From positions 2,128,802 to 2,192,801 of the forward strand of contig NC_036445.1 of NCBI RefSeq assembly GCF_002775205.1: a DNA stretch of 64,000 nucleotides. Reading direction: 5' to 3'. This document shows, piece after piece, positions 531-62,457 of this stretch; the first letter of the stretch is position 1, and each line of letters begins with the position of its first letter. The position numbers and the translations under genes are program-made. A model generated the notes under the pieces. That model was not told the origin of the DNA. It did not search any database and worked only from the letters and a program-made list of their open reading frames with translations. The DNA is from Xiphophorus maculatus. Taxonomy: Eukaryota; Chordata; Actinopteri; Cyprinodontiformes; Poeciliidae.

Positions 531-620
531 TATCGCCTACAGAGCTATCCTACCTATTCAAGAAAACTGTAAAGTAAACATCCTCAGCTACAATTCCTGA
601 CGTTTCCCTCCTGTCCTCAG

Positions 621-8919: not shown

Positions 8920-11900
8920 CTAACGCACACGGGACGCCTTCGAAGTGACCTGAATCAGAGGAAAATAAGAAATCAGCATTCTCAGTTTACTCAGTCAGGT
9001 GAATTATCTGTTTTTTAACAGATCGGACTCAGGAGCACCTGTGAGATTTCAACTCCTGTGAGTTTTTCCACAGCCTCTGGCAGCCGGGTCATGATGTCCA
9101 GAACCTCCCCAGCCAGTTTGGCGGCTCCCACCTCTGAGCCGCCGCTGGACACCATGGTGATCTTCTGCGCCTTCGACATCGGCTTGCTGATCTCCTCAGC
9201 CATCTGCAGCAAAACGTCATCAGAGAAAGCAAAAAGGATAAGTGTTGGTTGTAATGAGGAATTTAAAATAAAATGACAAAATGTTTTCAGATAGAATCAA
9301 CAGTTTTAAGGAATGAAAAATATCAAAAAAGGTTAAAAATCCAATATTTTTGGTGTATTTTACAAAGCGGGCTGTCTGGGTTTCATAAAGTTGTTTGAAC
9401 ATCATCTAACATCCCTAAATTGCTAAATGCCACAATGATGAGAAAATATGTCAGATTTACTAATTATGTCTTCAAAATCTGGAGCTAGATACATTTATTT
9501 GGTAGTTTTGCGTCTGAACTGCATGACTTGTTTCAAACTTTTTGGTTTTCCTCCTCCATCTTCTGGCCCGTTCCTCCTGACAGGACTGAGTCGGGTTTGA
9601 AGTCCGCTTCGCTCGCGCGCCTTTTCAGATCTGACCATAAACTCCGTTCAGCACTGAGATCAGGACTTTAGGAGGGCCACGCCAAAACATTGAGTTTATT
9701 TTCCATGAGCCACTTTATAACCATGCTGTCCCTTTGGAACATAGTTAAATATTTCCACATAATAAATCTGAAATTTTTTGTTTCATTATTGTGGCGTTTA
9801 GCAAATATAAGTAATTTTTTTATTTTAACTGGCCTAAAACAGTAGAAGTTTGATTTGATTTAACTTCAGACAGTGAGAAAAAGAGGTGAATGTGTCTTTT
9901 GGTGTATGTAAACTTCTGGTTTCAGCTGTATTTCTAAAGGTAAATCTGCCTTGGTTCATACAGTAAACACACATCTTGCTCTGCTGAGGATCTTTGCACA
10001 GCGAGATGTTTTCAGATCTCAGGCTAAAGTTAGCTTGGTTCTTCTTTCTTTTCATATTCATGGTTATAATTTGTAATAATAATAATTAATGCCAAGAGTT
10101 TACTGCAGCTCTCTCACCCCTTTGATGTCCTTTCCATCATGCTCAAAATAAAAATTAAAGAGGACTAAAAAGTAATTTTGTTTTTGGCTAATTAAGTGAT
10201 TATTCTCTCAGCTCTAAGATTTGTTTAGATTATTTTATCAGAGAGAGTTAAACTGACCAGAGGAAGTTTCTCCAGCAGCATGTCCACCATGGCTCCATCT
10301 TTGTACTGCTTAAAGGCCTCGGCCTTTTTGGCCATCTGCTCTGCCTCAGCGCGACCTTTAGCCTCCACAGCGAAAGCCTCGGCGTCGCCCCTCATCTGAA
10401 TGAAAGCAAAAAAAAAACAAAACACAGACGCTCATTAGAGACCACAGCTCTAACAAAGTGTTAGACCTTCACTTCTCACAAAACCAAACATAATATTATA
10501 ATTAATAATAATATTAATACGTAATTGTCAGTTTTTACCTTAATCGACTCTGCCTCAGCTTCAGCCTCCATGATGAGCTGCAGGCTGAACAAAAGAACAG
10601 AACGAGTAAAATGCTCACTTTCAATCCCAGTTCAATGAACTCAACAAAATGGCGGCGTGCTGCTCACCGCTGCGCCTCAGCTAACTTCTCCATCCGGTAT
10701 TTCTCAGCTTCTGCAGGTTTCTTAACTTTGGCCTCCAGCTCCTTCTCTTTGCGGGAGATTTCCTGGTCCTGCAGCGTGATCTGCTGCGTTCGCTCCACCA
10801 CCTGAATCTGCATCTTCTCCTCCTCGATGCGCTGCTTGGTCTTGGCCACCTGATGTGGGACATTTAAAGGTGACCCATTATGCTTCCTTGAACAGTTTAG
10901 GATAAGGTCTATACAAAACATATTCATTGAATTTTTTGCACAAAATTGTGAGATTTAATTCTGCTCAGCTCTTCCTATTTTGAGCTCTTTCAGAATGAGC
11001 TGTTTTAGGGCATCTTGTCACTTTAAATCCAAATAAGCTGCTGCTGGCCACGCCCCCAACTCAACAATTACACTCACATATGAAAATGGCTGCAAACAGA
11101 TGCACAAACATGCAACCGTACATATTTGAAAAGCAGAAGGGGAGCCTCCTGCACAACCAACAAGAATGGAGCAAGTGGTTTCTGGATGGTAAGTCAACAA
11201 TAAAACGCTTCTCTTTTCCAGCAGCCATTGTACAGAGCATACAGCGGTAAAACCAGCTGACCAAATGTGCTGAAGCTCTGCTTGAGTTGCTAGGTAACCG
11301 ATCGGGCTTCACTGGGGTTCCTTTTTGACGGCTCATTTTCCAGATACCAAAACACATCAACTTATTGCCAAATAACAGCTGGGTGTTTTTTAAACTCTTG
11401 GGCTGTTTTAAGAAGAGGTGGAGACCCAAATGGAAGTTCAAAAACATGCAAAATGTGAATTTTGCCTTATAGTTCCCCTTTAAATGTGGCTGAAGCAATA
11501 AAATGTGTCGTTTACAAACTGTAGTGCACTGTGGTGCTGTAGGCACCTGAAGCTGGTAGGCCATCTCTGACTCGGCCTTCTTGGAGTTGACCTCGATGTC
11601 GTAGGCTGCTTTCTTCAGCTCAAAGTCTCTCTGAGCTTTCGCCATTTCGATCTCGTTCTTGTACTGCGCAGAAACCTTTTCCTGCATTGCATGAGCCTCC
11701 TGCGTACAGCCAGCGAGACAGGAACAGATCATGAGGAAATTATTCCAAATATATTCTTTTTCACCATTTATTTCCAGATTTGTAATTCTTTACCCTGATA
11801 ACAGCATCGCGTTTATACTGAGCCTCTCCGATCCTCGCGTCTCTCTGGACCTGGGCTGTCCGGGCTTTTCCCAGAGAGTGAAGGTAATCCTGCAGAGCAG

Positions 11901-20784: not shown

Positions 20785-24945
<4,161 letters not shown>

Positions 24946-25941: not shown

Positions 25942-26650
25942 GGCCTGTATGGTAGAGTGTCTGGACAAAAGCCACTCCTTAAGGCACATTGCAGCCCCTC
26001 TAGAGTTTACCAAAAGACACTTGGAGGACTCTGACCTTGAGATACAAAACTCTGGTTTGATGAGACAAAGATTGAACTCTGTGCTGTGAATGCCAGACGT
26101 CATGATTGGAGGAAACCATGCGTGGCTCATCACCAGGCCAATACCATCCCCAAAGTGAAACATGGTGGTGGCAGCATCAAGCTATGGAGATGTTTTGCAG
26201 CAGCAGGGACTTTTAGACTAGTCAGGATACTGGGAAAGATGTATGCAGTAATACAACCTGCTCCAGAGTACCATACCTTTATTTTCCAGCATGGCAATGA
26301 CCCAAAGGACATGGTCAAGATCTCAAAGGCTTCAGAATCACTCTGTGAATGTCCTCGAGTGGCCAAGCCAGAGTCTAGACTTGAATCTGATTGAACATTT
26401 CTGGAAAGATCATAAAATGGCTGTGCACAAACATCTCAACAAAGTATTAGGTAAAAGCTATGAATACCCACCTTTCTATTTTTAATAAATTTGCAAAAAT
26501 CTCAGAAACTTTTTTCCACATTGTCATAATAAAGTATTTGTGTTTAGAATTTTAAGGAAGGGGATTATTCAAACACAATTTGTAAGAAGGCTGCAACATA
26601 TCAAAAGGTGAAAAAGGAGAAGTGCTGTGAATACTTTCGAGATTCCCTGA
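25326..26650 (+). mobile_element. Degraded Tc1/mariner transposon
   Basis: The left end, CAGTGCATCCGAAGAATATT, and the right end, CTGTGAATACTTTCGAGATT, are inverted versions of one another with mismatches. Between them a broken transposase frame is read in pieces: SDETKIELFAVNARRHDW-like, KVKHGGGSIKLWRCF, and VLEWPSQSLDLNLIEHFW. These correspond to the DE, GGGSxMLWGCF and PSQSPDLNPIE motifs of Tc1 transposases, with stops and frameshifts throughout. The wording matches a widespread fish Tc1-like family. An (AATC)17 tract interrupts it at 25873-25940. It lies between tubb and mdc1. Confidence 0.88.
25873..25940. repeat. (AATC)17 microsatellite
   Basis: Seventeen uninterrupted AATC units, embedded in the Tc1 relic at the point where related elements carry a single AATCAGGCC. 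The tract therefore seems to have grown by slippage from the transposon's own sequence. Confidence 0.95.
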
Positions 26651-28186: not shown

Positions 28187-31100
28187 ATGGATGCAACTCA
28201 GGCGATCAGTGACTCGATCTTAGAGTCAGAGGAGGAGGACCAAGAGAAGATCCAAAATGAAAGCAGGAAGCCATTGGCCAAACTGTGCATCTTAAATAAT
28301 AAACACATCCCTGAAAAAGGTAAAGTGTCCTACTCTGGTATTTTTACCTGTAGTGTATGCTATGCTAGGGGAAAATGTGCATAAAACGCATTGAAACACC
28401 ATATTCTTTAGCTGTAGCAGCGTGATGTTACACAGAAAAGATTGTAGTACTAATTATCTTTAACAAAATCAACAGCATGTTTGCTGTTGATTTATGACAC
28501 ATGTAGAAAGGGATCTTTAAATTTTCTACATTTTAAATTGTTTGTCATTTCACAGATCTTCTAAATAGTAATCCATGATTGTCTGTTCTGTTGGCGGATA
28601 AATATGACATGGCTTAGAGTAATTTGTCCGAGCCACTTTACAAAATTGGAAAGAGGAGAAAACATACCATTTAAGTAAGGCAGGTGTGTGTTGATTATCA
28701 TGTCATAAGAAATGGCAACTTGCATATTTTTGCTGAAGTCTACAGTCAGAGCAATATTAAAAAGGTTAACACAGCAAATTTGGAAGAGGATTCATATGTA
28801 TCTTGCCACTACAAGCAGTGAGGAAGACAGTAAAGGAGGTCAAAAACTCAGAAAAGTAGCATTTTGTAGTCACCAAGTCTCTATAACCTCCATTAAATGC
28901 TATGTAAATGATAACCAGTTCTTTAAACAGGTCCATATTGTTTGTTCACACGAGAATTTCATCTTTTCACAAACTGGTATGAAATCGGGGATAAAAGTTG
29001 GAAAAGCATCATATGTCTGCTTAATACAATGGAGGATATTTGATGCTTTGGGTCTTTTTCTCTCCAAAAGATCCTGAATCCATGTCATCTTCGTCTCTTT
29101 AAAATACCAGCAAACTTTATGTTAAAATATAGTTCTGGAAATAAGATGAGAACAAATCTTCCCTGAATTAAATTATTTATTTTTTTCTTAAATTTTTCAG
29201 TGTAAGAGTAATAAACAATTCATTAATTAAAATTTTTTTATTCACATCTTTACTAGAGTCACAAATTTGTCTGTATGCATAGTCTGCCTTAACTACATAA
29301 GTCTTTCAAATAATATATTTTGTCTCTGTCACTTAGAGTTGCCCCTCTTCCTGGGACATAATTTCCTGGGTCGTGACCCAAATTTTTGCACAATACAGTT
29401 GTTGGCACCATCTGTGTCCAAGCAGCATGCTGCCATCAGCATCTCTGTTCACCGGAGAAGAGGCCGTGTCCATGAAGTGGACATGGAGGCCCTGGTTTGG
29501 GACCAAAAGAGTACGAATGGGACACGCAAGGGACGCCTAAAGCTGACCCCTAACGTGCGCTATGCCCTCAATGAGGGTGACAGCTTGGTTTTGGGGGACA
29601 TCCCATGTCGGTATGTGAGCTCCGGGATGGACTCTCCTTCTTCCCTTGGTGACATGGAGACACCAAGACAATCGGAAGCAAACGCCAGATTGTCAGATTG
29701 GGACGACGTTGACACAGGAAGCAAGAAATGTGTCAGTAGAGGCACAAAAGCTAAGAGGATTCCTGTCACAGGCAGTTGCCTCTCATTTGAGAAAACTCCA
29801 GTCCAGCCACAAGGGAGCTTGGTGCCAGAATCTGATTCTGAGTCAGAGAGCGAAAGAGAAGGGAGAGGAAACAGAAAACAGAAGGATGTTGGTATGTGAA
29901 ATTTCTGGCAATTTATAAACACAACCACTGTTTATATTTTTATTCACCAGTTGGCTTTGATTTCAGTGTCTGCTTCAGACTCCCACAATTCTGCATTCTT
30001 AAGCCCTCAAAGCAAAGTCGTTCCTGAAAGGTATGTTTTTATATCTGAATTTTTACAGTTCATTTCTAACACCTGCATATTATACTGAAAATTTACACAT
30101 TTTATTACACATTACACTACAACCTCAAATATATGTGTATCTTACCTGGACTTTGTTTAAGACATGAACACAAAGTAGTGTTTGCTTTTATTTAAACCAG
30201 TGGTTTATATATATTTTTTTCCAATGAAACACCACACATTTGGAGATTTTTGATAGGTATTTTCTTAATCTAGATAAAAAGAACCACAGACAATGTTACT
30301 TAGTTTTCAGCCAAATTCTTGCAAGAATTGAGAAGGCACAGAGGATCAGCTCCTACAAGCCGGTCTCCTTGCGTTCTGCCATTCTGCTGCAGAACTTGTC
30401 TTTTTATTAGCAGGGAAAGGAAGTGAATTGGATGTGGGAGAGTGATCTTAACAAAAAGGGGGGCTACCCTGATAACAAGCAAGGGAAACAGAAACTAAAT
30501 TCTACACACAGACAGTTTTACAACTAAGGAGTATCTCAGTAAGTTCTCCTAAAGAAGCACCTGCAAAAAAACATGATTGTGGTCAAGGAAAGGTTAGTTA
30601 TGTCTTACACACAGTTTAACAAGTTCTTCCTCTCTGGGGTGAGAACACTAAACCTTAAAATAAAAGACAACTAGTAATATAAAACTACTAATATAAGAAA
30701 GATAACAAAACATAATAATGCTAATGATTTTCCTGCTCAAAATCCACCTACCGTAACGTTATTTTAGTGAAACAAAGAAAGTAGTCATTCTTGTGAAAAA
30801 GTGTTCTCTAAATGAGTGCAGATCGAAATACTAAAAAGTGTCTTGTAGGTTTGCCTAATTAAAAAGTAATAGTTTCCAAATTTTAGGGGAATCAGTTGAT
30901 TTTTGCTTTCTTGTCTACTCTCAGCACGCTTTGAAAACATGTACTATAATTGGCAAAGTTTAGTGAATCACTTAAATGTACATTTTGCTGCAGAAAGGTC
31001 TGATTTTGTGTGTAAATGTTGCTCAATATTATTTAAAGATTTTAGGAAAATTTCAATTTGTCAGGAATAATTCGGTTCTAGTTAATGATAAAGTCTCCTC

Positions 31101-37100: not shown

Positions 37101-40100
37101 GAATCAGAGGTGATTTTGTTATTTCACTTTAAAAATATGATTTATAGTCTACTGCGCACATAAGAACAAAGCTTTTAGCTTTACTCAAAGCTGCATTTTG
37201 CTCCATGAACCAGCCTTTTCAACTCCTATAATGTAATGCACTTCCTTCTGTAAGATGGGTTTCCAAGTGGTTTTTGTTTCTGGCCGCATCACAATTATGA
37301 ATGTCCTCAAAGGGCCGATTGTGGGAGAATGTATTCATGAAACTAACAGTTAACAAACTTAAAATTTCTCTGCATTTGATTACCACTTCTTAAAATGTAA
37401 CAATTTTAACATTAGACTGATGTAATTTGACCCTGTAAATGAAACCTGGTTTGATTTGACTGATAAAATACTATTTAAGCATACAACTAGAATAAAGTGT
37501 GTTGCCCTGTAGAATCTAGAGGGCCGCTTAAGTAGCTATAGTGGGCCGAATTTGGCCCGCGGACCTCAGGTTTACACCTGTAATCTATATGATGGCACAT
37601 ATTTTTCTTCTGCTCAACTTTGTCATGTATCTAATGGATTCAGTGAGTTGATGGTCGCCCACACTTTCTTCTTACATTTTGTCACTGTTGTTCTGAACTG
37701 AACTGATCTGATGTTGTGTCAAACATCAGAGAGGAAGATTATCAATTCACAACTTGGAAGAAAGTCAAAACGATCAATAGTTAAGACCAATATTATAAGA
37801 AGTATTCATATAAGTGTTATACAAATTACTAGAGCTCAGCTCCTGTCTTGTCCTATGTTCTTCTTCTCCTCTGTAACTCGCTCAGATCTCGGTCATGACT
37901 CCTTCCCGGAAGCGGCGGGTTTCCTCAAACTCCTCCCCCGTGGCTAAGACGCCGCGTTCCTCCTCTGCGTCTCCAGCTACAGTTAGCCGAGTACGATCCA
38001 GGAGCCAAACCTACAAGGTCTGTGTTTCTATCCTTTACCCAACAAATAAAATAGGCAGGATATTGGAGCGCCTATGAATCTTTCCTCTGAGGCCTTAAAA
38101 TGAAAGATTTATATCTTTCAGGATTGGGGCCACTGAAAAAAATCTGACTTGACTCTCAGTTTCAGACTTGGAAATAAATTTAAAAAAGTCAGAATTTCGA
38201 GCAAAAAGTGGATAGTAAAGGTGTGGATAGGTGGCAACAAATTAATTGTAATTTTTGTATTAGAATTAACACCAATAAAAACTGTGTGTGACTTTTTCAC
38301 CTCTTATAAATATGTTTTTTAAAAACTGTACTTCCGCTTTATTCATATTTGAGTTGATGACATCACATGAAGCAGCAACAAACAGTAACGGACAGGAAGC
38401 AGAAAGTGTCCATGTCTGAGTTGATCGGTGATATTTTTGAATTTCCTTGCTAATTTGTACCTTCTTTATTTTCTTTAACTACTTTATCCTCTATTTTGCA
38501 TTTTTCTGATTTGTTGTGTTTTGCCTCCAGAGACTACTCTCTTATCTCGGAAGGAAACTTGTATTATAACTTTTATTTAAAGTGGGAGTGTTAACATTTA
38601 TTTTTGGTTTGTGAAGGTCTCATTTCTCACTACTCACCAGACAAATGAAGAATTAAAAAAATCTGTTATAACAATGAAATTAGGCTCATATGTTTCCATA
38701 TTTGCTCAATCAGCTACCAGATAGATTTAGATCTCAGTTCATGAGTAAAACTGTCTATTGTCCGTGAAGTGAAGCTGCGTTGCTATTTTCTCAGGTTCTG
38801 TTCACAGGAGTGGTGGATAAAGATGGAGAGCAGGTGCTGGCTCGTTTAGGAGGCGCCATGGCCAGAGGTATCTCCGACATGAACTGTCTCGTGACAGATA
38901 AAGTGCGAAGGACGGTCAAATTCCTGTGCGCCGTGGCTAAAGGTGTCCCAGTCGTCACCACTCAGTGGCTGGAAAAGGTTATTAGCAGGAGCTGCTAAGT
39001 GCAACACAGACTTGTTCTTTCAGGTCGGCTCAGTCCCACTCAGACTCTCCTCTCTTGGTTTCAGAGCGGTAAAGCTGGGAGCTTCCTCTCTCCGCTTGAT
39101 TTTATTGTGAAAGATCTGGAGCAGGAGAAGAAGTTCAGCTTCTCCCTGCAGGAGTCTCTGAGGACTGCCAGCAGTCGGCCTCTCCTCCAGGTACTACCTC
39201 ATCCTCTTTAATTCTTCTCTTATATTCTCTGACTGAGTGGTTGACGGCGTGTCAGTGGCGTGTAGCGGGCATTTCCTTTAGCTGACAGCGCAGCGGCGCT
39301 GGTGAGAAAGACTGACTCACCGTAGACACGGAGAAATGTTTGAGTCATTCCCGGTTCTCATCCGATGTTGATGTGTGTGTGCCACCTTGCAAAGTGTTTG
39401 CAGTGCAGTGCATAAGTATTCATACCCGTTTTAACTTTTCCACCTCTTGTCAAATTACAACCACAAACCTTGGTGTATTTTGTTGGGATTGTTTGCCTGT
39501 CAGTCCACTTCACAAGTATTAATGGAAGCCACTTGATTCACTGTTTTCCAAAATGCTTAAAGGAAAAATTATGAGCAGGAGAGAAAATCTGACAATTATT
39601 ATTCCCTTTTACACTAAAAAGCATAAATGAATGTATTGTCAGCATAAATCCAAGTAAACTTAGACATTTGTTAGAAAATATTGTTAGTTTCTCCTTCCAG
39701 CAGAACAATAACCATAAACATTCAGTTCACAGGACTGTTTAGATCAGAACAAGCTCATGATAAAAATGGTGTAGTCAAAGTCCAGACTTAAATACAGTAA
39801 AATAATAATTCAATTCTGTTTTTAAATGGAAAAAAAGAAGATTTTATTGCCTAAAGCTCAATAATATAGCATTCCTTTAATTAATTTGAACCAGATTAAG
39901 CTAAGACTATTCTGCTTACAGAGTTTTGAGGGAAACATATATACAGACAAAAAAGTTTTTATCTTAAATGCAAAATACATATATATTTGTTACAGTTTTG
40001 CTCAATTGCTACTCTTCAAAATGGCCTTTTTTCACTCTGTGTACTCCACTTTACAATTAATGGATTATTAAATTATTTCAATAATCGATTCATCACGATG

Positions 40101-41099
40101 AATCCGATTAATCTTTTACTTCACTTTGCAGAGACAAATGGATGTGGAAATCTGGTTGAGACCAAAGTGACCTGCAGAGAAATTAGTTTTTACAAAGCAT
40201 CGACTCTGGTGGCCGAATGCAAGTGCAAGCATTTTTCAGACTTTTATTTGTAAACAAACGTCTAGAAACCAAATCTTTTTTTTCCCTTCCATTTTACAAT
40301 TAAGCAGTTTTTCTTTCTGATGTCAGATGACATCCTTGGTTTTTGATTGTAACGTGAGAAAATGTGAAACCGTTGGAGGGTTGTGGATATTTTTGCAAGC
40401 CACTGTGTTTCAGGTGGAGTTTCAGGAACCGGTGTGAATTAATTTGACATTTGCTGTTTGTGTTCTTATTATGTTTCATGTAGAGTTTCATCACCGTGGT
40501 AAGATGAGAACTGGAAACAACAAAGAAATGCTGATGCCAAGCTAAAATTAGGGTGTACACCTCATCAAACTCTGTTGCCAAGAGCTTTTTTATCGATTTT
40601 CTCATTCTCTGTTACAGAACCTAAATAAGAATAGACTAATCCTTCTGTATTTGCTTACAAGAATGCGCAACGTATCACTTTGCTTGTTTGTTTCAGGGAT
40701 ATGAGATCCACGTCACAAAGTCGGTACAGCCAGAACCGGTTCACATGAAAGACATCATCACCTGCAGCGGCGCTACCTTCCTGAAAAAGATGCCCGCGGC
40801 TCACAAGGTGCCAGATGAGTCCAGAGCTGTAGATGTTGTCTTGTGTCGTTATTCTGACTCACCGCTCCTCTGTCCCCCGACTCTCCATCTCTCAGCCTCG
40901 GACCGTAGTGATTTCCTGTGAGGAGGACCTGCGGCTGTGTGGCCCCGCCGTGTCTGCGTCTCTGCCTGTCGTCACTGCTGAGTTTATTCTCACAGGAATC
41001 CTGCAGCAGAGAGTCGATTTGCAGACTCATGCACTTTCTCCCTGTGCCACCAACCCGCATCCTGCTGAGGGCAGAGGCAGAGGCCGAAAGAAGACTTAG
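28187..41099 (+). CDS. mdc1: Mediator of DNA damage checkpoint 1
   Basis: Nuclear scaffold that reads gamma-H2AX at double-strand breaks and recruits NBS1, RNF8 and others. Coding exons: 28187-28319, 29337-29891, 29967-30030, 31355-32457, 32736-32789 (or to 32795), 33460-37109, 37886-38017, 38795-38977, 39065-39190, 40697-40807, 40896-41099. Frames join to about 2,104 residues (human 2,089). Domains: N-terminal MDATQAI, with Thr4-Gln5 as in human; FHA about 45-145, with LGRDP, SVSKQHA and STNGT; seven acidic SDTD-type repeats about 350-610; TQ-rich cluster from about 625; long charged tandem repeats to about 1,850; tandem BRCT about 1,898-2,090, with VLFTGVV and RRTVKFLCAV, which keeps the Arg and Lys of the phospho-serine pocket. 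The human PST repeats are not seen. Several introns contain dead Tc1 copies. The donor of exon 5 is ambiguous (32790 or 32796), and both keep the frame. Confidence 0.95.
28600..29105 (+). mobile_element. Tc1-like element relic in mdc1 intron
   Basis: It starts with AAACATACCATTTAAGTAAG, near-identical to a scrap at 12115-12140 in flot1 and like the start of Tc1 transposase genes. It continues as a degraded frame with SITSIKCYVNDNQ and a GGYLMLWVFF stretch corresponding to GGSxMLWGCF. Many stops are present. The longest open frame in it (121 residues) is transposon remnant, not a gene. Confidence 0.6.
31120..31250 (-). mobile_element. Tc1-like fragment, antisense, in mdc1 intron
   Basis: The minus strand contains CATGGCAGCATCATGCTGTG followed by GGGATTTTGTTTTGGAAAAG, the Tc1 GGSIMLWGF motif region. 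Only this short piece is recognisable. Confidence 0.6.
32879..33385. repeat. AT-rich interspersed repeat (family C), copy 2
   Basis: This matches the copy at 14870-15210 in order and wording (ATACATTTTGCTGGACAATA, AAATTGCGATAAAGGATGAT, AAACAATAAATAAGATTA). It extends further, through a unit with TTTCAGTATCAACTTGTTCT, to an end near GTAGATTAATTGTTTGCATT. It sits directly before the large mdc1 exon, so the open frame's first 40 codons upstream of 33460 are intron and repeat, not protein. Confidence 0.6.
37283..37580. mobile_element. hAT element relic (family B) in mdc1 intron
   Basis: The right end reads, on the minus strand, CAGGTGTAAACCTGAGGTCC, next to the family's GGGCCGAATTTGGCCCGCGG block. 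The left part has GGCCGCATCACAATTATGAA and GGGCCGATTGTGGGA. Its left terminus is not clear. It lies in the intron after the large mdc1 exon. Confidence 0.6.
39401..40407 (+). mobile_element. Degraded Tc1-like transposon between mdc1 BRCT exons
   Basis: The left end CAGTGCATAAGTATTCATAC and the right end GGATATTTTTGCAAGCCACT are the inverted termini of a fish Tc1-like family (compare GTATTCATACCC with GGGTTGTGGATATTTTTG). An internal scrap near 39700-39800 reads QQNNNHKHSV and SQSPDLN, matching the QQDNDPKHT and SQSPDLNP region of Tc1 transposases. Insertions and deletions have destroyed the frame. The element makes up most of this 1.5-kb intron. Confidence 0.75.
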
Positions 41100-49052: not shown

Positions 49053-52000
49053 ATGAGGGAATCTTCCAAAATGACGGCAGTCACAGTGATTGCGCTCAGT
49101 TTTCTTATCTCTGCAGGTATGTGGAGTAAAAATCAACGATTCTGATGCATTAACAAACATTAGAAACCATTTTTATCGTGCAGCTTCATTTTATGTTTTG
49201 ATTTAAAATTGAATGTTATACTAAAGAATGTGAAACAGTCTATTTATGGAAGTGATGTATAATTTTAATTAGTTTGTTATGCTAGAACTGATTAGAAATA
49301 GATAAAATGTTTTCAAATTGTTCTTTAACGCTGTTTTATTTGATCTTGCAGCTATCTCTGCCCCTCTAAAAGGTAAAAGTGCCTCTTATCACCACATCAC
49401 ATGATTCAGATGCATCACTTATGAGGTTTCCTCTCCCTCTGACGGGAAATGTTTACTTACTTTCTCTTTTTTTTCCGATCCAGAAACGAAGGAATCCGTA
49501 ACGCTATTCCATGGAGAGGATTTCCACATCCTGCTGCCGTCACAAGACGTGGATGTCACATTCAAGAACCGTTCCGACCCTCGGAAGACCTCGGTGCTGA
49601 TGAAGGGCGGCAAAGTGATCGGCACTCGGGCCAAACCCACCCTGCACCTCAACTACATCAACATAGAGGCTGTGGGTGAAGGGGACGAGGGGATGTACAT
49701 CCTGAAGGATTCCAAGGATGATAGTGTCATCAAGCAAATTTCACTAATAGTCCGAGGTACGGAGCAACACGACACATCTGGAATGCTCTGGAAGGGGCGA
49801 TAAAACAGAACTTTTTCTGCTGAAAATCGAAAATATGAAACACACTTTGATTTGATTTGATTTGATTTATTTATTTCAAACACGTCCCAAACAAGACAAG
49901 CAATCAGTAAGACAGAGAAAAAAAAATGTTGTTCTTGACTTTTTTGTCTGAAAAGGAGAAGGAAGAAGTGAACACCTACTGCGTATCTCAAGTTAATAAA
50001 ATATAAACTGAAATGTATTCCTTATCAACTCAATAATTATCAAAAAATTCTAATTAAAATAATTCTTATGTGCCTGTTCTATTGAACAGAATCGCCTCCC
50101 CCTTCCACTCCCAGCCACATTGTTGCTTGTATTTCTGTAAACATTTTGCTCTTCTTATTCTTGATGAGGAATTCGATTGGCTATAAGAGTTTGTGGTGAA
50201 TGAACAGGCAAAACAATAAACTTGATTTATATTGCAACAATGCAAATAAACAAATAAATTATTTAAAGGACATATAATTACCTACAGACAACAGTATATC
50301 AATGACAGAAACACAGCTGGAGGCTGGATGAATGGCTATGAAGTTGGCTAAATGTCTGTTACTTTATATTTTTCCTCTTGTTGCGTCCCCCTAAAGAGCT
50401 TTGGTGCCCCCTGGGGGCCCACACCCCACATTTTGAAAGGGCCTGTGATGCTCTGCACAGGGCATCTGCATCGCCAAGAAGTGCTTCTTTTATGCCTTAG
50501 TCACAGAAAGTTTGAGATTTTGGGCTTTTAGTGAGATGGATAGAGTGGGATTTCAAAACAGCAACTCACTGGTTACATGATAAACCTTCACCTTCTGAGC
50601 CATTGCACAAAAAAATTAATAAATCAGTAATTCTTTGTAACTTTTATACATTTGTTAAAACTGTCTTCATGTTGTGAAAGTATTGTATGAGAGAGATAAT
50701 CTGGGAAAAAATCAATCTCCTTGGCTTTCTCGCAGTGCTGCTATTGCTGTCTGAGGAAATGCGTCGCCCCCAGTGAAAAGCAACCAATCAGAGCCAAGAG
50801 TAAGGTGTTAGCGCTGTCAGTCATGCTCGTGTACATGTTGCTTAATGTGTTAATGGTGGGGGGAAAATTACAGTCACAGGAACACCATTGACTGTCATGC
50901 TAGTCTAAACATTCTTGGCTGGCTCTGTTGTGGTGAACCAGCTGTAGAGAGAAAGGGGAAAGGTGTGAGCAGCATGTACATGAGCTTGATTGACAGCACT
51001 AAGATCCTCCTCCTGGCTCTCATTGGTCGTTTCTCACCCAGTAGTTTATTTTTGTAGTTACTGAAATAATTTTAACAACTATGTATGATACAATTTTCTT
51101 TTTAAATTAAAGTTACATACCCAAACTTTAATGTGGATTTTTTTCCCCCCTAAATTGGGTTTTAGAGAGGAAACTACTGCCACAAAAGGTTTAATTTATT
51201 TAATTTATTCAAATCTTAACCAGAGGTTACAATTAAAGTGGAGGGCACTGAATGGTTTTCTACTTTAGGCCCCAGGCCAGCGTCAGAGTCAGTGTTGTCA
51301 CATCAATCACTTCTTTTTCCAGTCAGACTAATCCCACGCAAACACAAGAGACATTATCACGTTTTAAACTCAGAGTGTGGATGAAAGTGACTGTAGTAAG
51401 TGGGTACAGAGCCACATGGAGGGAATTATGTGAGCTAATGAAGAGGTGCATTTGGTTTTTGACAGTAAGAGCAAAGCTGGAGATGTCAGGCAACAATTAT
51501 CCAGCTCTTTACTTGTCCCTATTTCCGTCCGTCCCCTCTGTTTTCCTGTCCTTATCTTGTCTCTTCTGTCTTTCCTTCTGTTTAGTTTTGTTCATACCCT
51601 ATCATTCTCATTACCCTGATATTTTCGGGTCACTGCTCCTTTCCTTTTGTGCATTTAGTCCCTTTTTTTCTACATCTGCCAAGCTGTTTTTCCTTTCTCT
51701 TCCCTTCACAGTACCGTTTCCCTGTCATCTCTTATTTCAGCTCAAGCAAAGAATCCAACCTCATTGGCCTTTGTGAAATTGTCAGGCACTTTCCTGTCGA
51801 CTCTATTTAATTTTTCTGCTCCCGTTTACTCATAGATAAAATGCTCATCCCCTTGTTTTACCCTCCAGACTGCACCATCGAGCAAATCATCAAATATGGC
51901 GGGGACTTCCACATGCCAGTGGTGAATGTGAACGTCCCCATCACTCTGGAGTACAAACCCAGTTCAGTGGAGGCCAACCTGACGTCCAGGTACAGTCAGC

Positions 52001-55000
52001 AAAATCTCACTGACTTTCTGAACCCAAGAGTCAGAACTGACATTTTTCAGCCTTGACGCATATGCGCTGAGACAAGTCTGAGACGCATCGAGAAAAAGGT
52101 TGAGAAAGGTTCACCGTCTTCGACTTTCATCCCTGCAGACCGGCGCTCGTGGTGCTGACGGCCACTGGGGCCTCCACCGACGCTTACCGAGGTCGCATCA
52201 CCGTCAGCGAGCGATCCATCACCATCAGCGCGGTTACAGGCGTCGATGAGGGCAGCTACACCGTCAGGGACAACAAAGGGGTTATCAAACACAAAGTGTG
52301 CCTGAATGTCATAGGTGAGGACAGCAGATGAAGGCTGAATATTTATCTTTACCTGTGCATGATTTGCTTTAGTGTCTTCATTCAGGATGTTGTTGTTGCT
52401 CTAGTTTTATGCTCCCCCGGCAGGCTGTAATGGCTTTTTAAAGACTCAAATCTTAATGGTAGGCTAATGCACTTACAGTGTGTAAGCAGAGAGACTGTGA
52501 AGTTATCAGATTGCCTCCCTTCTCTATTGTCTCTTGCAGAGCACAGAAACTTTGTGTTCCTTTCTGCTGATGAGAGACTGAAGATCAACCTGATTCTAAA
52601 CAGCTCCTTGGTCAAACTCCACTACACCCGAGATTCAGACTCCTCAGCCGTCCTGCTGATGGACAAGGGAGAGTTCACAAGTGTAACTATATACAAACTC
52701 TTATTTTCTTCAAAGATATTGCAAGATATTAGAACCGTTGTGTTGGGTTGCATAAAGCAACCCAATCTGGGCTCTTTTTGGTTGGATGACAAAATTCACA
52801 GTTAATATGTGACACTATAAAATATCTGTGTTATGATGTGTTTGGGAAAGGACCAAAGTTCAGAGACTGACTGGAAAAGAAAGAAAACAGTGTTCTTAAA
52901 TGATGCGCAATATGGAGAACTAACAAGTTAGAGTCGCAGTTGGAGCGGGTCGTGGAGGTCAGACAGAGAAATATGGAAGAATTAAAAACCAGGAGCGTAA
53001 ACACTAATGATAAAAAACTAGACGAACTAATAGGAGGAGATGTGCAGCAGCTGCAGGGACACAAAGAGAGCTCAAGAAATTCACTAATGTGGCTACAACT
53101 TACCAATAATAACAAATACAGTCAAAATATGACAAGATGTCAAACGTAAATTACCAAATAAATGATCTAAACACAAATACCTGTGGATTGTGACCTTAAA
53201 TTCTCTATACTGATTTAGTTTCAGTATATTTGGTCAAACTGACAATGTTGAAATGTTGCCCATAGTTGCTAATTTCACTGACTAGATAAATAAATGTGAA
53301 AATCTTCTGAGTCATTTATTGTTTCTTAGATTTCATGCAACCAGTAATTAAATCTCTGATAGAAAATGGGACAAAATAATAAAACAATGTAATTGAATTA
53401 GAGTTTAAAGTATTTATTCATGTTGTTTTATTTTTATTTATCTTGTTTTATTACATCCCCTTATGGTGAGTTAGCTATGACAAGCTATAATTTGCTCATA
53501 TATTAAATACTAAAAAACAATATCTTTGTCTACTTTTATCACCTGTTTCAGTACTACAACTATTAATTATTAATCCCTATACATGCACTAAGATGTCAGC
53601 ACATCTTATTCATGTTTTCTAATTAAACATCGTTTCATTCCAGGCTCAGGCAGATCTTGGTTTTAAGGACCGGCTCTCTGTGGAGGGTTCGATGGTCTTT
53701 CTAGATCAGATCAAGAGCTCAGACGCTGGACTCTTTAAGATCACGGACTTGCAGGGATTCACCGTGTCCACCGTCCATCTGGGATTGAAAGGTAAGCCGG
53801 GAATAGAGCAAACTGAGACTAGATTAGTGCCACAAGTCATGACTTTTGGTTTAAAACTTAATAAATTATACAAAGTGCTAAACAAAATGTTTCACATACA
53901 CAGAAAAGACTGAAAAGATTTCTGTTGAGTCAAAATTGACAACTCCGAAATGTTGATCGGACTGCAAGGAATCTGAGACCTGGGCTGATGTGATCCACTA
54001 GACCACATGTGTCAAACTTAAGGGGCATGGGCCTAATCCGGCCTGCCATAGTTTTTTATGTGGCCTTCTAGATGCTAGACTAAACACTAAGTGTGCTTAA
54101 ACATTAAGTTATCAATAAAATCAATGCAGTTTTTATCCATTTACTGCCAAATTATATTAACCAGTCCCTCCAGTTTCTTGAGAATTATCATGGAAATTCA
54201 CACATACACAAATACATAGTTGTGAGTTTATTGCATATTTCTCTCAAAATTTGTCAAAAAGTTTCTTATTTGTACTAAACAGCTGCCTCAGCTTTAACTG
54301 ATGTCCACGATCTATACAGTGAGTAATAAAACGTTGCGTTTACCGTCATAAATAAGGGTAAATATCGCAAATATTTTCAAAATAGTACCACAAACACTGT
54401 GATTTGTGATTTTTATTGCAAAAAATCACAAAAAGTATCACAAATTCCTTAACGGACTGAAAAGATGTTCAAAAATTTCATTCAATTTGAAGAATTCATT
54501 GATATGTTAACAGTTTATCAACAGGTTTTATCAATACATTCTGGCACAACTGGCCCTTTAAGAGCGTTCATGATTTTGATTTGGCCCAAAATAAAAATGA
54601 GTTTGACATCCTGATCTAGACCACCCAATATTTCTAAGACCAGTAGCAGCCAGTAAAGTGATTTGAAGACTGGTGTCATGTGATGCATTTTCCTAGTGTT
54701 GGTCAGGACCCTGGCAGCAGCCTGACTGATGTCTGGCTGTAAGGGACTTTGACCAAGTGATGACTGGAGTATAACGTTGTGTGTCATCAGCATACACATA
54801 ACAAATTATTCTGTAATACTACTTAATTCAAGCCAAGGGAAGCATGCATGTATTGAATAAAAGTGTTCAAATGACTGAGCCTTGAGGAACTCCATATGGG
54901 ATTTTTTTGTTTGCATTCATAATGACCAAATGACACAAAGGAAGTCCAGTTTGCTTATTGAAATCTGAACCAGCTAAGCTCAGTACCAGTAAGTCACACT

Positions 55001-57543
55001 CATTTTTCAGAAGACTTAAGTTTTTGACGCCCCTTTGTTTAAATGTACGGTATAGTATTAGTATTAGTATTAGTATAGTATTTACCAGCACATGTTCAGA
55101 GCTGTGGTGTTGTTGAAAACCTGACAGTAAAAATTTTAAAGATTTTTCTTCTTTTTAATAAGAAGAAGTAAATTTGTTGCTAAACTGCCTTTTCAATTAT
55201 TTCTATTTTTCAAAATTGTTAGGTTAGATATTAGTCTACTATGTAACCTACGCATCCATGAGAGGTTTGAACATGACAGTTTTTGCCTGTAAAGAAATGT
55301 TACGCTCTGTAATTTCAACACACATCTTACAGAAATGAGGTTGTGTGTTTTTTCTCCTTTCTTGATTAGGAGGAATTTATCTTTGGTTGTTATAACTCAA
55401 TATGCTACTTCTCTCTGCCTCCCCACAGCCTACAAAATGGAGTCCCTCTATGTGGCTATCATTGCCCTGCTGGGCCTGCTGGCTTTCCTTCTGCTGGTTT
55501 GCCTTCTGTCCTGCCTGATCAAAGTGAAGAAGAGGGCCAACAGGGCTGCTGCACTGGAGAAACTGGCTCAGAACGCTGGCAAAGAAGACGAGGGCGAGGC
55601 CTTTAGACAGGTCTGATATATTCACAATCACATGTGACAACGAAGGTTTCTCCAATGCAATTATTAACCTTCATGTGTTTGTGCTGGATTGTAACAGGTG
55701 GTCAAGAACATCACTAAACTGAGCGAGGAGTCCAAGCATTCCCAAGCTGACAACACAGAGAAATCTCAAAGCACTGAGGTAGACATCAAGGTAAGGAGAC
55801 ATCACCCCCCATTCTTTAAGCTAAGACAGAGAAGTATTAATAATGACTGAATATTTTTTATGCTGTTTTCTGCGTTTAGACAGTTGCAGCTTATTCAGAA
55901 CGCTGCTGCTAGAGTCCTGACTAAGATCAAGAAAGTGGATCACATCAGTCCAGGTCTCAGATTCCTTGCAGTGGCTTCCTGTGCAACAAAGAATAAAAGC
56001 GTTGAATGATTTAGGGCCAAAATGTATCTCTGATCCGTTCACGTTTTATGAACTGTTCTGACTTCTCAGGTCTTCTGGGGGTTATCTTATTTTCCTGAAA
56101 AGGTTAAAGTAAACATGCAGATTTTCTGCACCACAACAAACTCCCAGAAAACCTGAGGCCTGCCCTAACCTTCAGTTCTCCTAAGTTAAAGCTGAAACTG
56201 TTTCTGTTTGCCGCGGCCTTTTATTGAGTTAAATATGTTTCAACCTCGATCCAAAGCCTGCAGCCAGCCCATGCCCGGTGCATTGTAGCTGAGCTATGAC
56301 TCGCTCTTCCTGTTCTATGCAATTTCAGCTTACTCCTTCCTTCTTTCCTTTCCTGCTCTGTCTGCAACAGATGGACTCAACTCCAGTTTGTCATGAATAT
56401 GAATATGATGCTAATTTAAGGCTTTCAAAGGTTAATTTGGATGGTTCTGCTTACAGGGTGAAGTGGCGATACAGCTTTTCAATAGGAAAGGGTGCACAAG
56501 ATTTAATTTATTGTGGCGTACAGGGTCTAAATTATACACAGACCCTCACTAATTTGAGGATAAAGGCCTGTATAATTTTGACCCTCTGTAGTTTGGAGAA
56601 ACCAATTCTGGTTTTAAGAGTCAATGAAGTTGGTTTAAATGTGTGTTTGAAAGCCTTAAGTTAGTGTAATACGCAAACCCATGATGAGTGTATGTAAACG
56701 TCTCACCTGGACTCTTCAAATTGAACAGCTAATAATGTTCACTCGTTGTCTGTGTGAATGCAGGGTCTGGAGGTTTCTTCTAAAGAGGTTGGCGTTGGTA
56801 ATCTAGAGACCAGTGACTCCGGCGTTGGCTTCAACACTGCTCTCCCACTCGATACTGACACTGATGTCCCCGATCAAATCCCCGATTCTGAGGCTGTAAG
56901 CATCTCTGTTGCTCCTGAAATCAAACCAAGCCCTCCTTCCGCTGCTGAGTCTAAGCCAGCTGCTCCACTGGTACCAGAACCTAAAGCAAGCCCTGTTCCT
57001 GAGACGAAAAAAGCCCCGGACCCGCCCATTGAAGCAATGCTGGACACACCCAAACCAGTAGATGCTAAACTTAGCCCAACCCCGAGTATGAAGTCTGGTT
57101 TGAGTCCAGCTGAAACAAAACCTGCACCCAGTCCAAGTCCAGAACCCAAGACTGGACTGAGTCCAGCTGATCCAAAACCTGCTGCTAGTCCAAGTTCAGA
57201 ACCTAAGACTAGTCTAAGTCCTGCTGATCCAAAGCCTGCACCCACTCCAAGTCCAGAACCGAAGATTTCTCCGCCTGCAGTCACCACTCCAACACCTGAC
57301 ACTAAGAGTCCAGCGGCTTCAACTCCTGAGCCCACCAAACCGAGCCCAGCAGAACCCATCACTAATGGCACACCAGATCCGGGACCCGATTCCAAAGCAA
57401 GCCCGGATCATGCAGAAATCATCAAAGACCCAACTCCAAAAGAGGTTTCCACTAAAACCCACGAAGTGGAGCTGAAGTCCAGCAGCGTCATTCCAGAGGG
57501 CAGCAAAGACGGCGCCGCAGCCAAAGATCCGACTACGACCTGA
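49053..57543 (+). CDS. Type I membrane protein with three cysteine-poor Ig-like repeats and Pro-rich tail
   Basis: Not recognised as a named gene. Exons: 49053-49116, 49352-49372, 49484-49756, 51869-51989, 52139-52314, 52540-52682, 53644-53791, 55429-55610, 55698-55790 and 56764-57543 (stop TGA). Frames join to 666 residues. A signal peptide ([12 protein letters not shown], cleavage near 25) precedes three repeats at about 28-119, 120-218 and 219-315. Each ends in an Ig F-strand-like motif ([29 protein letters not shown]) without the usual Cys. Repeat 2 has two Cys at unusual places (near its start, CTIEQ, and near its end, KVCLNV). Potential N-glycosylation sites are NRS, NLT and NSS. A transmembrane helix (about 322-346) is followed by a KVKKR stop-transfer, then a 320-residue tail with SGVGFN and acidic DTDTDVPD, a 19-residue tandem repeat, and many PxxP. 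The phase-1 exon borders around the repeats are typical of extracellular modules. It is probably a cell-surface receptor or adhesion protein; the ligand is unknown. Confidence 0.85.
54004..54613. mobile_element. Non-autonomous hAT element (family B) in the Ig-like gene
   Basis: The left end CACATGTGTCAAACTTAAGG and the right end, on the minus strand, CAGGATGTCAAACTCAT pair as terminal repeats. The flanks CACTAGAC (53996-54003) and ATCTAGAC (54614-54621) agree at six of eight bases. The same internal order (TTTTTTATGTGGCC ... CTGGCACAACTGGCCCTTTA ... GATTTGGCCC) is seen at 7749-8336, so the two are copies of one family. It lies in the intron between exons 53644-53791 and 55429-55610. Confidence 0.8.
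54620..55095. repeat. Probable retroelement fragments
   Basis: Stretches such as TTTGAAGACTGGTGTCATGT, GACCCTGGCAGCAGCCTGAC and TGAGCCTTGAGGAACTCCAT are wordings I associate with widespread fish non-LTR retroelements, apparently antisense to their coding direction. A (GTATTA)n run ends the segment near 55050-55075. Exact borders cannot be set. Confidence 0.45.
55860..56260 (+). mobile_element. Non-LTR retrotransposon (L2/Rex-like) 3' fragment
   Basis: A degraded frame reads [20 protein letters not shown], then [11 protein letters not shown] and [10 protein letters not shown]. This is the C-terminal part of the reverse transcriptase ORF of a common fish LINE (family wording [17 protein letters not shown], LxGLGPKYISD). 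It is 5'-truncated, as is usual, and full of stops. It sits in the last intron of the Ig-like gene. Confidence 0.75.
57097..57267 (+). repeat. 57-bp coding minisatellite (three units)
   Basis: Three in-frame 57-bp units (57097-57153, 57154-57210, 57211-57267) in the last exon of the Ig-like gene encode 19-residue repeats. Each has the form [GS]LSPA(E/D)xKPA and then P(S/T)PSPEPKx, with minor changes. Unit boundaries fall on codons, so repeat-number changes would keep the frame. Confidence 0.9.
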
Positions 57544-61599: not shown

Positions 61600-62056
61600 G
61601 GAGGTCTATTTTTTCTTGGCCACTTAACTTAAGAAAGATGGAAAGGATCAGAGAATATGTAATTCAAGAAAGGCATGTTTGTGATGGTCTTTAGAAATTA
61701 GAAAAGGTCTTAAAGAAATTAAGACAACATCTTAAGTTGTCTTAAGTTGAAGACAACTTAAGATTAGAGGCATTTTTGTATCATCAAGTTGCCATAAAAT
61801 CCAACAGACACTGTAAACATGACAAGCATGGCAGGAAAAAAAAAAGACTTATTCTAATCAGCGGTCACAAATTAAAACATGGGGGGTTTGCTACCCTGTG
61901 CCATTATCTGGAACTGTAAACTTTATCCAGATTGAGTCTTGTGAAAACAAACATTACTGGGGTTTTGTGAAAAACAAAAGACTGATATTAAAAACACAAT
62001 ATCTCTTTCCTGGTGTGAAGTACAGTGGGGGCTCTGTGATGATGTGGGGATGCTTA
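61600..62056 (+). mobile_element. Tc1-like transposase relic interrupted by a MITE
   Basis: A degraded frame includes MERIREYVIQERH near the left and GVKYSGGSVMMWGC immediately before 62056, which corresponds to the Tc1 GGGSVMxWGCF motif. Near 61730-61765 the DNA contains a self-complementary stretch (CTTAAGTTGTCTTAAGTTGA with GACAACTTAAG). The frame is broken by stops and then by insertion of the MITE at 62057. Confidence 0.65.
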
Positions 62057-62457
62057 CACTGCAAAAACACAAAATCTTACCAAGAGTTTTTGGTCTAGTT
62101 TCTAATGCAAATATCTTAGTTCACTTGGAATAAGATACAACTAACTTACAAGTAGCTTTTCAGCAAGATATAGTGACTTGTTTTAAATGAACAATTCCTG
62201 AATATTGATGACGAAAGTATTAGCGATAAGTGAAATAATCTGAAACACATTTCAACTTATATGGGAAAAATGTCTTATTGCATATCCATAACTATAACTT
62301 TTGCATCAATACTAAGGAATTATTGACTTAAAACAAGCTCCTGTATCTTGCTGAAATCTTACTTATGAATCAGTTTTGTCTTATTTCAAGGGTACTGAGA
62401 CATTTCCAGTAGAAACTACACTGAAAATTCTTGGTAAGATTTTGTGCTTTTGCAGTG
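62057..62457. repeat. CACTGCAAAAA-type MITE, complete copy
   Basis: This 401-bp element has matching inverted ends, CACTGCAAAAACACAAAATC on the left and the same string with small differences on the opposite strand at the right (CACTGCAAAAGCACAAAATC). It is flanked by TA (62055-62056 and 62458-62459). TA duplication suggests a Tc1/mariner-mobilised MITE. Internally it is loosely palindromic and has no coding capacity. A truncated copy lies at 1350-1609. Confidence 0.88.

Follow-up and report, generated by a model that had tools for sequence, protein, structure and literature searches.

A duplicated gene for a cell-surface protein

The window analysed here, the whole 64,000-nucleotide stretch at C3:2128802-2192801 of the 704-Mb genome of Xiphophorus maculatus (contig NC_036445.1), holds genes related to ddr1, flot1, tubb and mdc1 and, beyond them, a gene whose product is probably a type I protein of the fish cell surface and a member of the immunoglobulin (Ig) superfamily. 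This gene is one of a duplicate pair, the other member of which lies on C13 and is linked to class I genes of the major histocompatibility complex (MHC). The gene occupies positions 49053-57543 of the + strand and comprises ten exons separated by introns which are all GT-AG, giving 2001 nt of coding sequence that specify 666 amino acids with no internal stop (Table 1). The encoded protein starts with a hydrophobic leader, followed by three repeats (residues 29-119, 120-218 and 219-315), a single transmembrane (TM) helix at approximately 320-347 and a 319-residue tail. A preliminary description of this DNA had proposed just such a ten-exon gene with a signal peptide, three repeats bordered by phase-1 introns and one TM helix; all of this was borne out, the borders by the exon phases and the model as a whole best of all by the exon structure of the second copy. 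We hold the three-repeat Ig architecture and the existence of the duplicate pair with high confidence.

The coding frame runs through each of the ten exons without a stop, and in eight of them it has the top codon score of the three frames, the short exons 1 and 2 being the two where it does not, as judged with a small training set made up of one mdc1 exon and the tubulin gene, both of the window. For exon 10, a frame open in any of the three was obtained in 2 of 5000 first-order Markov simulations. A pyrimidine tract and an AG lie immediately 5' of the first ATG, and an upstream exon carrying 5' untranslated sequence is therefore likely. The donor of exon 6, at 52682, is weak and is required because the frame continues only with that donor. 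Five N-glycosylation sequons are present, three of them in the ectodomain (one in each repeat), and there is not a single Trp in the entire protein. The cytoplasmic tail contains 56 Pro and no Tyr, and two Cys where the TM helix reaches the cytoplasm may be of the palmitoylated kind.

When the protein was used as a query with its Pro-rich end left out, one other match was found in the genome, at C13:12365449-12370844, exon by exon and in order. The C13 copy as query returned the C3 and C13 loci alone at an expectation value (E) of 0.1 or below, with a further match on C23 at E 0.32. This second copy has nine coding exons across 12365024-12382261 and encodes 550 residues. Both copies possess the phase-1 domain borders and, in repeat 2, a phase-2 intron at the same R/P joint, and in each of them exon 2 measures 21 nt and exon 9 93 nt; the C13 copy differs in having repeat 3 as one exon and a shorter tail which is not Pro-rich (12 Pro in 205 residues) and contains four Tyr, of which one sits at the membrane. 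The two proteins are 33, 39 and 32% identical in repeats 1, 2 and 3, 65% (39/60) in the TM and juxtamembrane region, 32% in exon 9 and 59% (20/34) at the start of exon 10. The blocks kept across the TM and juxtamembrane region and exons 9 and 10 read AYKM..L.VAI..., then AGK.D, GEAFRQVV and TEV.IKGLEVS, and in the tail the motif SDSGV.F is kept along with LPLD.DT, which comes three or four residues later.

The intron within repeat 3 (52683-53643, 961 bp, phase 0) is absent from the C13 copy and represents a lineage-specific gain or loss between the two duplicates. Its origin as a mobile-element insertion was considered and is unsupported, the intron matching itself alone in the genome. Introns 7 and 9 contain, by eye, debris resembling the reverse transcriptase of long interspersed nuclear elements (LINEs), at 54867-55154 (-) and 55851-56009 (+); the former frame gave no Pfam match at E 0.01.

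Table 1. Coordinates of gene features and neighbouring reading frames, as positions of the window
Feature	Position	Strand	Remarks
Exon 1	49053-49116	+	Signal peptide; two in-frame ATGs, 49053 and 49071
Exon 2	49352-49372	+	End of signal peptide/linker, 21 nt; equal length in second copy
Exon 3	49484-49756	+	Repeat 1, residues 29-119, Ig V-like, single exon, phase 1-1
Exon 4	51869-51989	+	First half of repeat 2, Cys121; phase-2 intron within domain, common to second copy
Exon 5	52139-52314	+	Rest of repeat 2, ending at residue 218; DEGSY, Cys214
Exon 6	52540-52682	+	First half of repeat 3; donor AGT/GTAACT (slash, exon end)
Exon 7	53644-53791	+	Rest of repeat 3, ending at residue 315; DAGLF; exon 6/7 intron missing in second copy
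Exon 8	55429-55610	+	TM helix ~320-347, Cys340/344, basic juxtamembrane block
Exon 9	55698-55790	+	31 cytoplasmic residues; length of 93 nt common to the two copies
Exon 10	56764-57543	+	Tail with GLEVS...SDSGVxF...LPLDxDT block, then Pro-rich region; stop 57541-57543
57-bp tandem repeat, 2.9 copies	57101-57265	+	Makes the 19-residue Pro/Ser/Lys repeats of the tail
ddr1-like kinase frame	601-2400	+	Pfam
Flotillin frames	10667-11789	-	No Pfam match; second genomic match on C13
Beta-tubulin (tubb) frame	24112-24942	+	Pfam
FHA frame (mdc1)	29231-29896	+	Pfam
BRCT frame (mdc1)	38768-40918	+	Pfam

The three repeats and their cysteines

A structure model of repeat 1 only, for which the other two repeats were supplied as the alignment, is a two-sheet beta sandwich with the strand order of V-type domains. 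In a search of the PDB with a profile of the repeats, all 33 matches down to E 10 were Ig-domain proteins, judged by name, and the second copy reached 26.3 bits with the Pfam V-set model, just above its cut-off of 26.0. In BFVD, a fold search returned 84 matches with E<=0.001. Most of the named entries in the 50 rows listed are viral membrane glycoproteins (herpesviruses, adenoviruses and poxviruses), which say nothing beyond "Ig". The structure model with its fold matches, the PDB profile and the V-set score of the second copy thus support the proposal, already made in the preliminary description, that these are Ig-like domains free of the usual disulfide. Neighbouring repeats are also related to one another: none of 2000 shuffles reached the score of repeat 1 against repeat 2, and four of 2000 that of repeat 2 against repeat 3. 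Across the 15 pairs formed by the six domains of both copies, the score was reached by none of 500 shuffles in eight pairs, by one in two pairs and by six in one pair.

This assignment should nevertheless be considered with some caution, as a number of results weigh against it. The five models of repeat 1 span a mean pLDDT (predicted local distance difference test) of 40.4-85.7. The window copy falls below every Pfam cut-off, its V-set score being 14.8 against the 26 bits needed, and no single-domain match in the first PDB profile does better than a weak independent E of 0.042. Repeats 1 and 3 of the window copy are not significantly alike, 192 of 2000 shuffles reaching their score, and the remaining four of the 15 domain pairs are likewise not significant (43 or more of 500 shuffles).

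Other searches added little. Apart from the gene's own five frames, no copy of the repeats was found in the window under E 4, and residues 1-407 have no match in NCBIfam. A match of the TM region to the Pfam family GAPT (E 0.017) was taken as chance. Two pattern scans for relatives on viral contigs gave 3 and 45 matches, none of which was confirmed.

The D-x-G-x-[YF] motif that precedes the F strand is found in all three repeats of the window copy, and in six of six when the second copy is counted. The place of the F-strand Cys in D-x-G-x-[YF]-x-[C] is taken by Leu102, Val202 and Ile299 in repeats 1, 2 and 3, and that of the B-strand Cys, set by an ungapped count from the N-terminal end of each repeat and not from a structure, by Leu46, Val137 and Leu236. 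In the second copy the corresponding B/F residues are Val/Ile, Leu/Val and Leu/Val, so that none of the 12 sites in the six domains holds Cys and all are Leu, Val or Ile. The B-F disulfide is customary in V-like domains of the Ig superfamily but is not obligatory. The earlier claim that both canonical Cys are missing therefore stands; the F-place residues it named, Ile, Val and Lys, do not, having been taken, in the first and third repeats, from the position just ahead of the right one.

The preliminary description had also overlooked that the ectodomain does contain just two Cys, 121 and 214. Both belong to repeat 2, the former where the A strand begins and the latter within the G strand, and both are kept in the second copy. 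As an extra A-G disulfide has been reported for zebrafish Cd2, there is the possibility that Cys121 and Cys214 form a comparable bond in domain 2, which by this analogy would be plausible, although a residue-count estimate places the two Cys perhaps three or four residues out of A-G register.

Relatives of the gene and its genomic setting

Antibody V domains, IgLON, nectin-like proteins, Robo, contactin, VEGFR and pIgR come out as the best neighbours by structure and by profile, families absent from the fold-match rows not being excluded thereby. The alternative that survives best is that the gene is a fast-evolving derivative of the nectins or JAMs, which we consider improbable. Nectins have three Ig domains, each with its disulfide, and a PDZ-binding C-terminus. 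The window protein shares the three Ig domains and TM helix, and Necl-4, CRTAM, Necl-2 and JAM-A are among its structural neighbours, JAM recurring in the sequence matches; however, many other Ig V domains score about as well as these structural neighbours (Z difference <1), and no sequence search ties the gene to these families specifically. The canonical disulfide, which is carried by the domains of nectin-like proteins, JAMs and IgLONs alike, is absent from the window protein, there being no B-F Cys in any domain, and the C-termini of both copies do not resemble the nectin PDZ ligand. The gene could perhaps be a relative of the pvrl2-like gene, which has been placed in the same block in salmon (PMC1971071) and tilapia (PMC12774591).

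A lower probability still is given to a divergent member of the CD2/SLAM family, in which the first Ig domain, of V type, lacks the disulfide and the second, of C2 type, carries an A-G Cys pair besides its B-F disulfide. The two Cys of repeat 2, near the A-strand start and in the G strand and conserved in both copies, would suit such an origin, and SLAM (CDw150) is among the weak profile matches (E 0.30). The IgV domains of zebrafish Cd2 and Cd58 are said to lack the disulfide and Cd2 to have the extra A-G bond, in a passage whose naming and numbering are inconsistent (PMC5990624). A V-type domain without the B-F disulfide is common to CD2/CD58/SLAM and the window protein, but the latter has three V-like domains, instead of V plus C2, with no B-F Cys pair in any of them, and the PPLPRPR tail motif described for CD2 (PMC5990624) is missing from the translation. 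Nor are the best structural and profile neighbours SLAM proteins, even if absence from that list excludes nothing.

A further family worth comparing is CEACAM, of which CEACAM1, CEACAM6 and CEA are among the profile matches (E 0.004-0.28). Its N-domain is V-like without a disulfide and is followed by disulfide-bonded domains and tails with an immunoreceptor tyrosine-based inhibitory motif (ITIM) or a glycosylphosphatidylinositol (GPI) anchor; the window protein has neither an ITIM nor a GPI tail. The literature searched yielded nothing useful on CEACAM domains that lack the disulfide.

The preliminary description had called the gene MHC-linked and read it as a cell-surface gene of the MHC neighbourhood, an idea which in its strongest form would make it an immune receptor resident in the MHC at this locus. 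The neighbours ddr1-flot1-tubb-mdc1 are genes of the mammalian class I region (human TUBB, FLOT1, DDR1 and MDC1 are tabled under class I in PMC1309616), and the kinase, tubulin, FHA and BRCT domains were confirmed in the window. However, the at least 38 MHC_I matches scored genome-wide all lie on C13 with the other copy and none on C3, counts which are lower bounds. They form groups near 9.93-9.96, 11.81-11.90 and 12.09-12.27 Mb, the nearest ending at C13:12269925, 95 kb from the second copy. Class I linkage on C3 is accordingly refuted in this assembly, barring misassembly or missed class I genes; residence of the window gene in the MHC is very improbable, and the idea fits the C13 copy instead. 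With all scored MHC_I matches on C13, the contig of the second copy, the duplicate (ohnolog) outside the MHC is most likely that of the window and the class I-linked one that of C13, the pair most likely dating from the teleost genome duplication.

The neighbourhoods agree with two related blocks. The order on C3 is ddr1-flot1-tubb-mdc1-gene and on C13 flot1-tubb-gene-tcf19, with flot1 (-) and tubb (+) beside both copies (+) in equal order and orientation; on C13, flot1 lies at 12.344 Mb, tubb at 12.356 Mb and the FHA domain of tcf19 at 12.396 Mb. A flotillin query matched C3 and C13 with 82-90% identity, and C11 and C18 with 52-54%. The tcf19 FHA query had a single match in the genome, and the PHD domain fell just under its Pfam cut-off. 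Within the 100 kb searched around the C13 copy, neither mdc1 nor ddr1 gave a match at E 0.001.

In zebrafish, flot1 is on chromosome 19 and flot1b with a ddr1-like gene on chromosome 16 (PMC1309616), a placement that fits C13 and C3 as two duplicated blocks. In Atlantic salmon a gene called UNKNOWN stands, in table order, between TUBB and TCF19; the authors thought that it might occur in teleosts alone and named relatives on zebrafish chromosome 19 and in Tetraodon (PMC1971071). Its position equals that of the C13 copy, the window gene being the other duplicate outside the MHC. Several points weigh against this history: the ohnolog origin rests on synteny in one genome and on published maps, not on a tree; salmon UNKNOWN is equated with the C13-copy gene by position and not by sequence comparison; and zebrafish does not show the whole block, the 2005 survey placing tubb on chromosomes 20, 14 and 23 and a tcf19-like gene on 1, with mdc1 not found (PMC1309616).

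Apart from the salmon entry, the protein is undescribed in the literature searched, and, as in the preliminary description, no mammalian counterpart turned up, in searches which took in no vertebrate protein database. The zebrafish gene si:dkeyp-77h1.4 may possibly be the window gene, an unproven assumption, as nothing found links the name to it. Two papers list the gene of that name as unknown or uncharacterised, one with a fold change of 494 in Antarctic notothenioids (PMC7918649) and the other among the positively selected genes of annual killifish (PMC5418189).

Some further elements were seen by eye around the two loci. In the window, Tc1/mariner transposase-like fragments lie at 26041-26394 and 61823-62095 (+). 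Just past it, after the gene, there is a PRY-SPRY (TRIM-like) frame at C3:2193040-2193606 (-), with valyl-tRNA-synthetase-like frames farther along C3 and frames of a retrovirus-like element at C3:2228594-2232745 (-). Given the PRY-SPRY and valyl-tRNA-synthetase-like frames, the C3 block seems to retain additional MHC-type neighbours, though no class I matches. On C13, BTB, kinesin and C2H2 frames lie ahead of flot1.

Least probable of all, and hardly credible, is an artefactual exon model or a gene decayed to a pseudogene, as the derivation of the model from DNA alone, the weak exon 6 donor and the LINE-like intron debris might suggest, since ten stop-free exons, exon phases and lengths shared with the C13 copy, and blocks conserved in the TM region and the tail argue otherwise.

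Proposed function of the pair

For the pair of cell-surface Ig proteins we tentatively propose a role in reception or adhesion. Each of the three V-like domains would be held together by a hydrophobic core replacing the disulfide, domain 2 perhaps being pinned in addition by the A-G bond, and the resulting three-domain rod would bind a protein ligand on another cell. The ectodomain would diverge fast, while signalling would proceed via the conserved membrane-near block and the Ser/acidic tail motif, which may recruit a cytosolic partner. No Tyr motif of the ITIM type, or of the activating type (ITAM), occurs in the C3 tail, which has no Tyr, so that this copy does not signal by an ITIM or ITAM. 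The Pro-rich stretch would be a later addition of the C3 copy, serving as a spacer or as a platform for SH3/WW-type domains. It counts against this scheme that the exon model was read from DNA alone and that the ligand is a proposal only. The more specific version, in which the genes form a teleost-specific receptor pair, one inside the class I block and one outside it, made up entirely of V domains in which a single alternative bond in domain 2 has replaced the canonical disulfide, is more doubtful again.

As an extracellular protein the product would be unusual, with three consecutive Ig domains all lacking the B-F disulfide, a pattern kept in both copies. Were the receptor pair real, the rapid change of its ectodomain and the conservation of its inner half would make it an unrecognised immune recognition system that does not signal through Tyr, and the pair would be a candidate contributor to the disease-resistance effects mapped to fish MHC regions. 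One fine-mapped peak of resistance to tilapia lake virus in Nile tilapia lists flot1a, tcf19l and pvrl2l (PMC12774591); the C13 copy sits between flot1 and tcf19 and, if the order in tilapia is the same, would be a candidate missing from the gene lists of such intervals.
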